Below the pieces are notes generated by a model. That model was not told the origin of the DNA. It ran no database searches and worked only from the letters and a program-made list of their open reading frames with translations. The position numbers and the translations under genes were made by a program. A DNA stretch of 37,347 nt, from assembly GCA_029782135.1 (NCBI GenBank), contig JAKOVI010000121.1, forward strand, positions 1-37,347, given 5' to 3'. The DNA is from Bacillota bacterium. GTDB lineage: Bacteria; Bacillota; UBA4882; UBA10575. This document shows positions 55 to 12,508 of the stretch, one piece after another (position 1 is the first letter of the stretch; each line of letters opens with the position of its first letter).

Positions 55-66
55 TTTTCTACTGTT

Positions 67-470
67 ACCAACCGGACCTATAAGCCGAGTTCTGTACCGA
101 CTGCGGAGGCAGTCGGCGGTAACCATTTATCTGGGACGACAGTTACCTGCCGCCTCATGCGACCGTACCCGAGGGAAGAACGGGCCATTCTTGCGTCTGC
201 CCGGCAGACGCCCCCTCCTATTCGGTCTTGCTCCGGGTGGGGTTTACCAAGCCGGTTGATCGCTCAACCGCTGGTGCGCTCTTACCGCACCTTTTCAGCT
301 TTGCCATGGACCAGCCTGACGGCTGCCAGTAGGCGTTTCCTTTTCTGTGGCACTTTCCTTAAGGTCACCCTCACTGGACGTTATCCAGCACCCTGCCCTC
401 TGGAGCTCGGACTTTCCTCAGGCGCTGCCTTTGCGGCCGGCACCCGCGGTTACCCGGTTCGGTTAGTCCC
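67..470 (-). ncRNA. rnpB: RNase P RNA, class A
   Basis: Catalytic RNA subunit of RNase P, which matures tRNA 5' ends. Read on the minus strand it has the conserved 5' block GAGGAAAGTCCGAGCTCC, then CAGGGTGCTGGATAACGTCC. Near the 3' end are the conserved core ACAGAA and the segment CTCGGCTTATAGG. The ends pair as helix P1: the reverse complement of 461-467 and beyond pairs with 67-78, with one mismatch and one G-U pair. The architecture fits the ancestral class A form rather than the Bacillus class B form. The reading frames across this stretch are not genes. Confidence 0.96.
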
Positions 471-11294: not shown

Positions 11295-11317
11295 CAAAAA
11301 AAAGCGCCTTTCGGCGC
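11295..11317 (-). terminator. Minus-facing terminator
   Basis: GCGCC-GAAA-GGCGC followed by eight T on the minus strand. It lies 240 nt downstream of the small gene at 11557-11748 and is a plausible end for its transcript. Confidence 0.7.
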
Positions 11318-11321
11318 GACT

Positions 11322-11350
11322 CCTTAAGTTTAATAACTTAAGGTTTTTTT
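11322..11350 (+). terminator. Plus-facing terminator
   Basis: Perfect 9-bp stem CCTTAAGTT / AACTTAAGG with a TAAT loop, then seven T on the plus strand. It may end read-through from the CHR operon. It lies back to back with the minus-facing terminator at 11295. Confidence 0.75.
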
Positions 11351-11425
11351 GTGGGTTCGATTCCCACCCCACATCATCAGCGGGTATTAACGCCCCCGCT
11401 TACTAGGCGTCTTGGGTTATGTGGG
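11351..11425 (+). other. tRNA T-arm-like element with an acceptor-like inverted repeat
   Basis: GTGGG-TTCGATT-CCCAC (11351-11367) has the sequence and size of a tRNA T-arm. The next seven bases, CCCACAT (11368-11374), are exactly complementary to ATGTGGG at 11419-11425. No D-arm or anticodon arm is found on either side, so this is not a normal tRNA gene. It may be a tRNA remnant, an attachment-site relic or chance. Confidence 0.35.
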
Positions 11426-11458
11426 CCAGCCCCAATCTATATATAAAAAAGGAGGAAA

Positions 11459-11488
11459 ATGAAAAAAGGTTGTTCTTCGCTATTATAA
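11459..11488 (+). other. Possible mini-ORF (9 codons)
   Basis: ATG AAA AAA GGT TGT TCT TCG CTA TTA TAA with a strong GGAGG just upstream. It is too short to identify and may be a chance ORF or a leader peptide. A similar 11-codon ORF with GGGAGG lies at 11167-11202. Apart from these, the hairpins and the T-arm-like element, nothing recognisable is seen between 11110 and 11556. Confidence 0.2.
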
Positions 11489-11556
11489 TACCAAACGGTG
11501 GTTAATTTCACTTTGCAGAGAAGAAAAGAGAAGGTAAAAAATTGTATAAGTTCAAC

Positions 11557-12013: not shown

Positions 12014-12045
12014 AAAAAAACCTCGCTACGCAAAGCATCGAGGTT
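12014..12045 (-). terminator. Riboswitch-controlled terminator
   Basis: On the minus strand AACCTCG pairs with CGAGGTT, followed by seven T in all. The 5' arm and loop of this hairpin (12028-12044) are complementary to the riboswitch core at 12092-12107: nine perfect pairs plus five, separated by a 3/2-nt internal loop. The terminator and this antiterminator pairing are mutually exclusive. Confidence 0.9.
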
Positions 12046-12050
12046 CTTTC

Positions 12051-12137
12051 AACATGGCAACCGAGCTATCTTGGCAGTCAACCTGCTTTAGACCTCTGGC
12101 TTTGCGTCCTTACCTTTCGGTAAGTTTGCCGTTTTCA
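12051..12137 (-). promoter_or_regulatory. Cyclic-di-GMP-I (GEMM-I) riboswitch aptamer
   Basis: The minus strand reads GGCAAACTTACC-GAAA-GGTAAGGACGCAAAGCC, then AGAGGTCTAAAGC, and closes with GGTTGCC. This matches the class I c-di-GMP aptamer: the GCAAAC strand, the P2 hairpin capped by a GAAA tetraloop that docks on P3, the invariant GGACGCAAAGCC core and the CCTAA-like segment before P3. P1 is GGCAA / TTGCC. Ligand binding should hold the core in the aptamer and free the downstream terminator, giving an OFF switch. The aptamer starts about 20 nt after the CCA end of tmRNA on the same strand. Confidence 0.93.
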
Positions 12138-12155
12138 TCTGATCAATATTTAATT

Positions 12156-12508
12156 TGGTGGAGGCGGGGGGAATCGAACCCCCGTCCGAAAAGATGACCA
12201 TAGGAGTCTCTCCGGGTGCAGTCCGCACTTAAAATTTAACCACAGCCCGGTCTGCGGACGGACCGGAGGCTTTGGCGATCTCGATCAGCTTAGCACCGGC
12301 CTCCGAGAATTGACCGGTGAGCGTCCTGGTTTAGGTGACGCCCGCACTAAACTCCCAGGCTAAGTTTAGTTTGGACGGCTACTTGTAATTAAGCAGCTAA
12401 AGCGTAATTATTGTTGGCACTTAATGTGCTTGCTGCAGTTTAACGAGGCCACAGCACCTCGACCCGCTACCCCTATCATCATACTCCCCGTCGAAACCAG
12501 TCGCCCCC
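12156..12508 (-). ncRNA. ssrA: Transfer-messenger RNA
   Basis: One-piece tmRNA of about 353 nt that rescues stalled ribosomes together with SmpB. The acceptor stem GGGGGCG (5') pairs with CGCCTCC (3') and is followed by ACCA encoded in the DNA. The 3' T-arm GGGGGTTCGATTCCCCC and the 5' block GACTGGTTTCGACGGGG are typical. The tag reading frame is at 12389-12418. smpB lies just upstream on the same strand, but ssrA has a strong promoter of its own. No intrinsic terminator follows the CCA end; the first one downstream is the riboswitch-controlled terminator at 12014-12045. Confidence 0.97.
12389..12418 (-). other. tmRNA proteolysis tag reading frame
   Basis: GCC AAC AAT AAT TAC GCT TTA GCT GCT TAA encodes ANNNYALAA and a stop. 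It ends in the ALAA-type degron seen in Firmicute tags; the resume codon is GCC. Confidence 0.93.

Follow-up and report, generated by a model that had tools for sequence, protein, structure and literature searches.

A c-di-GMP-I riboswitch located directly downstream of the tmRNA gene in a member of the Bacillota

Organization of the ssrA locus

Riboswitches commonly form part of the 5′ leaders of protein genes (PMC9943018). The window analysed here, a 37,347-nt stretch of a Bacillota draft assembly comprising 163 contigs, carries a c-di-GMP-I riboswitch behind ssrA, the gene for tmRNA, which is itself preceded by smpB (13090-12629). The elements of the locus are as follows:

12564-12536, minus strand: ssrA promoter, TTGTCA-17-TATAAT, agreeing with the consensus at 11 of 12 positions; the site is kept in the sister species G001
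12508-12156, minus strand: tmRNA (ssrA), detected by ARAGORN and Rfam (RF00023, 196.2 bits, E = 9.6e-79)
12155-12141, minus strand: A/T-rich linker of 15 nt from the tmRNA CCA to the aptamer, AATTAAATATTGATC
12140-12053, minus strand: c-di-GMP-I riboswitch aptamer (RF01051), 86.8 bits, full length
12107-12092, minus strand: aptamer core strand, consisting of ACGCAAAGC (12107-12099) and GAGGU (12096-12092), the predicted antiterminator strand
about 12051-12013, minus strand: stem of T1, the intrinsic terminator of the riboswitch and the first after ssrA, found by terminator scan (scored part, 12036-12020)
12044-12040 and 12036-12028, minus strand: T1 strands ACCUC and GCUUUGCGU, partners of the aptamer core in the predicted antiterminator
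11955-11927, minus strand: T2, a second, terminator-like hairpin with a short U tract, GACTCCCTCC...GGAGGGGTCTTT, -15.8 kcal/mol
11866-11842, minus strand: AGGAA-N-GTCGAA element upstream of orf63, resembling a Spo0A box and present in G001
11748-11557, minus strand: orf63, a small conserved gene, the next one after the switch, present in 12 of 61 relatives, every one in the same family

The tmRNA possesses the tRNA-like domain, a tag reading frame (encoding ANNNYALAA according to ARAGORN and Rfam) and an encoded CCA at 12156, which closes the molecule; its 3′ end reads ...CTCCACCA. The aptamer match exceeds the RF01051 cut-off of 35 bits and spans model positions 1-87, with core and helices present and no broken pairs marked. 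A preliminary description of this DNA had placed the aptamer on the same strand about 20 nt after the CCA at 12156. ARAGORN and Rfam confirm the order and the closeness, and the exact gap amounts to 15 nt to the aptamer model and 25 nt to the conserved GGCAAA. The same description held that no terminator and hardly any room for a promoter separate the two elements, and that the first terminator after tmRNA belongs to the riboswitch. Both statements stand: a terminator scan found none between tmRNA and aptamer, a promoter scan found no promoter-like site in the 15-nt linker or the tmRNA 3′ end, and T1 lies directly behind the aptamer. The locus thus departs from the standard ssrA unit, in which tmRNA is followed by its own terminator. 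The linker is probably the 3′ processing site of tmRNA.

A strong promoter is recognisable only upstream of ssrA. Because no sigma-70 fit near the aptamer exceeds 7 of 12 positions, and because the 30 nt preceding the linker are tmRNA sequence common to relatives without a riboswitch at that place, the simplest reading is that the ssrA promoter alone would feed the riboswitch. Only four c-di-GMP-I aptamers occur in the 2.38 Mb of the window genome; therefore, the adjacency to ssrA cannot be put down to chance among abundant aptamers. Two others lie on contig C62 (57510-57598 and 50451-50546, both minus strand, within L079), each preceding a response-regulator-like gene and one of them accompanied by a flagellar-sigma-like promoter, TAAA-N17-CCGATAT. 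Six GGDEF-domain matches in the genome indicate that c-di-GMP is probably synthesised in this organism.

Behind the aptamer, the expression platform contains both T1 and a competing antiterminator. Taken alone, T1 is by its modelled fold a good terminator (-14.6 kcal/mol, seven U). Its 5′ half is complementary to the aptamer core, with which it is predicted to form a duplex of 9 bp + 5 bp, ACCUC pairing with GAGGU and GCUUUGCGU with ACGCAAAGC. In the window copy, the folding model gives -42.0 kcal/mol for the antiterminator and -42.6 kcal/mol for aptamer plus T1, so that the two states appear nearly equal in energy; in G001, the model prefers the terminator state by about 11 kcal/mol. Across the compared genomes, the seven platforms of this subtype all offer the core a downstream partner of 7-10 bp, vs 4-7 bp in 30 other platforms. 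The CTTTGC loop of T1 is invariant across the seven related platforms, and one position of the T1 stem is occupied by three pair types: G-C in the window, A-U in G001 and C-G in G010. In the predicted folds, the terminator is compatible with the folded aptamer and the antiterminator is built from aptamer sequence, as is characteristic of an OFF switch.

The hairpin T2, about 60 nt beyond T1, is a possible back-up terminator, and its arms are identical in G001. It was also considered as a repeated genomic element, which was rejected since it occurs as a single copy in the genome. The next gene, orf63, lies behind T2; it contains no known domain, and neither Pfam nor NCBIfam yields a family above cut-off. 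An element similar to the AGGAA...GTCGAA upstream of orf63 precedes the gene in two other genera (G005, G006), and the pattern occurs 36 times vs 11 for reversed controls in two genomes. This conserved element suggests that orf63 may be under separate control.

Two further non-coding elements were noted in the window. A conserved block after orf63 (11296-11511, minus strand), shared by genera g1 and g2, combines a promoter-like site, an invariant stretch complementary to a Shine-Dalgarno sequence (CATTTTCCTCCT), a long-range CCACAT/ATGTGG stem and an intrinsic terminator (11317-11304); it has no significant Rfam match and is a candidate for an unnamed small RNA gene. In addition, a complete class A RNase P RNA lies at 65-465 (minus strand).

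Conservation and history of the locus

The preliminary description proposed a comparison of ssrA downstream regions in related genomes, and this comparison finds the aptamer at the same place in G001, the one other genome of the genus compared, and absent there in other relatives. The series smpB, ssrA, aptamer, T1, T2, orf63 recurs in G001, where 146 nt separate ssrA from the aptamer. Since the order is shared, an assembly artefact is unlikely as its source. In genus g2, there is no riboswitch at the locus and orf63 follows ssrA after about 100-200 nt; by inspection, a hairpin with a T-run is seen only after orf63, none lying between the two genes. In G003, G005, G010 and G016, inspection likewise shows a T-run hairpin shortly behind ssrA. 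In G010 (genus g3), where ssrA ends in a terminator of its own, the same riboswitch subtype is found 547 nt after ssrA, ahead of a gene of 57 aa. In a tmRNA tree, g3 branches outside the remaining family, and the window genome (G000) and G001 are sisters.

In G010, G003 and G006, a riboswitch of this subtype is followed by a homologue of the small gene, which is 55-57 aa in length. The window genome itself holds such a pair on contig C37 (L078, 7142-7489), where a near-identical c-di-GMP-I riboswitch precedes a homologous 55-aa gene whose product displays the motif YNExTYxYSSGYRxCARDIL. The protein has no Pfam or NCBIfam family above cut-off. No copy of the gene was detected at the ssrA locus of the window genome, nor anywhere in G001. 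A likely history is that a riboswitch-small gene pair resided near ssrA and the small gene was then lost in the window genus; the window species likely underwent a further deletion, of about 130 nt, which brought the aptamer to 15 nt from tmRNA.

Between the window and G001, the aptamer is identical at 80 of 88 positions (91%) vs 441 of 735 fourfold-degenerate sites (60%) in four neighbouring genes (P about 6e-10). The identity of tmRNA is 94%, that of the segment from T1 to the end of T2 73% and that of the spacer between T2 and orf63 64%. The eight aptamer differences fall in loops, at ends or variable positions, or consist of one C-G to U-G change in P2. The excess over fourfold sites indicates that the aptamer is maintained, apparently by selection, rather than decaying as a relic. 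It is kept even though the 55-57 aa gene is missing from the locus in both genomes; the conservation speaks against a dead remnant, while leaving the output of the switch unnamed.

Proposed function and alternative explanations

The order of the elements, the absence of an intervening terminator, the complementarity between T1 and the antiterminator strand and the conservation can be read directly from the DNA. The reading that we consider best, at a probability of roughly 0.6, is a transcriptional OFF switch that would set the reach of ssrA transcripts, ending them at T1 or letting them proceed to T2 and orf63. In such an arrangement, ssrA and the riboswitch would form one transcription unit under the ssrA promoter, and RNA polymerase, having finished tmRNA, would go on through the aptamer. 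With c-di-GMP bound, the core would stay folded, T1 would form and transcription would stop, T1 serving as the ssrA terminator. With c-di-GMP absent, the core would pair with the 5′ half of T1 as antiterminator, permitting readthrough to T2 and partly into orf63. The direction follows from the expectation that the ligand, by stabilising the core, should favour T1. tmRNA would be trimmed to its CCA in both states, so that c-di-GMP would control the 3′ extension and its coding content, not tmRNA. Co-transcription, ligand binding, the direction of switching and orf63 as output are what we infer here.

The relatives support this OFF-switch reading, as those without the riboswitch have either an ordinary ssrA terminator or ssrA followed terminator-free by orf63. 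On the other side, T2 stands about 60 nt past T1, so that transcripts reading through T1 may end there, and orf63 has its own conserved upstream element, the sequence offering no positive sign that it depends on ssrA transcription in the window genus. The modelled preference of G001 for the terminator state, by about 11 kcal/mol, and its 146-nt linker, which could hold a promoter, likewise count against the reading. Gating of readthrough into orf63 by c-di-GMP is best regarded as possible.

What had been expected of the locus fits this picture in part. The preliminary description anticipated that ssrA transcripts carry the riboswitch, which is likewise predicted here, the ssrA promoter being the only recognisable one; it also anticipated that c-di-GMP decides between stopping and running on, a view backed by the antiterminator pairing and by how well the aptamer is conserved, the predicted direction being OFF. 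The suggested link between ribosome rescue and c-di-GMP is not supported: the switch comes only after mature tmRNA, which is expected in either state, and a direct effect on it has nothing beyond position to recommend it, because the mature molecule ends before the switch. A milder version, in which the tmRNA 3′ flank is tied to c-di-GMP, survives in part. Since mature tmRNA should be made in either state, the 3′ extension (T2, perhaps orf63) is the plausible target; T2 and the element belonging to orf63 weaken this version. It is rather improbable that c-di-GMP sets how long pre-tmRNA is and how it is processed, with consequences for its maturation or supply, or that it frees an abundant trailer RNA able to bind c-di-GMP.

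A more serious contender, though still an unlikely one, is that the riboswitch was recycled: its former 55-57 aa target disappeared, what was left became joined to ssrA through a deletion, and T1 today merely terminates ssrA transcription, sensing being inconsequential. This would be in keeping with G010, where the same subtype is kept 547 nt after ssrA ahead of the small gene, with the failure to detect that gene at the window locus or anywhere in G001, and with the near-identical riboswitch and small gene on contig C37. However, mere termination accounts poorly for an aptamer that is 91% identical, against 60% at fourfold sites, across two species that both lack the small gene here, or for an antiterminator strand and a T2 that are conserved as well. 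The riboswitch could also escape ssrA altogether, if an alternative sigma factor used a promoter hidden in the tmRNA 3′ end or the linker. Flagellar-sigma-like TAAA-N17-CCGATAW sites occur at two other riboswitches, one per genome of the genus, and the 146-nt linker of G001 could hold its own promoter, since it contains a similar weak site, TAAC-N17-CTGATAT, recognised by eye. Yet the flagellar-sigma-like consensus pattern is only modestly enriched, and in the window the linker is only 15 nt long, the 30 nt upstream are tmRNA sequence shared with riboswitch-free relatives, and sigma-70 fits stop at 7/12; we thus hold an independent promoter to be quite improbable.

Least probable of all, in our estimation, is that the trailer itself is the product, the piece from aptamer to T1 being freed by the tmRNA 3′ cut and persisting as an abundant small RNA, a sponge or trans-acting RNA with c-di-GMP or some other molecule as its partner. 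Such an RNA would be compatible with the compact, structured nature of the 3′ trailer and the strong promoter ahead of it, with an A/T-rich single-stranded linker suited to cleavage, and with conservation of the aptamer despite the lack of an obvious target gene, but the conserved antiterminator strand argues for a switch acting in cis.

Rarity, significance and relation to known systems

A pattern scan for CTCCACCA followed by the aptamer core within 36 nt revealed no other tight tmRNA-aptamer fusion in 84,980 species genomes, a scan that misses linkers longer than 36 nt and perhaps left out the window genome and its near relatives. Of the 87 stretches that it returned, not one had a tmRNA at the matching site, and nearly all resemble chance hits; viral contigs gave one stretch, likewise without tmRNA. 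Searches of the literature brought up no relevant account of a riboswitch behind tmRNA. Thus, as far as could be found, the placement after tmRNA is new, the aptamer class and the switching logic being already known.

At this locus, a housekeeping non-coding RNA carries as its 3′ tail a riboswitch that appears intact and selected, and no protein target can be recognised immediately beyond it. Should the switch function, the strong promoter of a non-coding RNA has been reused for readthrough gated by a second messenger, and it becomes a testable question whether c-di-GMP affects orf63 or the 3′ processing of tmRNA. If instead the pre-tmRNA or trailer reading were true, ribosome rescue would be coupled to the signal that governs the motile and sessile states. 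The relatives further provide an evolutionary series, from a genus in which the switch lies near ssrA and still has a target of its own to one in which it follows ssrA and that target is missing.

Riboswitches within small RNAs include Rli55 of Listeria and EutX of Enterococcus, both of which sequester a regulator protein. The window locus is similar in that a riboswitch would set the length of a non-coding transcript; it differs in that the upstream RNA is tmRNA, without a known sequestration site. Closer in sequence are the copies that accompany the 55-57 aa gene (contig C37, G010, G003 and G006), which have a nearly identical aptamer, T1 and antiterminator strand and, in G010, also lie downstream of ssrA; these copies keep the small gene just after T1, whereas the window locus does not. 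Transcription units that carry a riboswitch at their 3′ end are known from antisense-acting examples, namely the SAM riboswitch of ubiG-mccB-mccA and the cobalamin riboswitch of pocR (PMC9943018). These riboswitches share the position on the 3′ rather than the 5′ side of the gene, but are antisense to their targets, whereas the window switch is in sense orientation and co-directional with ssrA. In another instance, the Cd1 c-di-GMP-I riboswitch of Clostridioides difficile acts as a transcriptional OFF switch before flagellar genes (PMC9262584). The two have in common the aptamer class, a mutually exclusive terminator and antiterminator, and a ligand predicted to favour the terminator. Unlike Cd1, which resides in the 5′ leader of protein genes, the window switch comes after the gene for a non-coding RNA, and its T1 is not directly followed by a protein gene.
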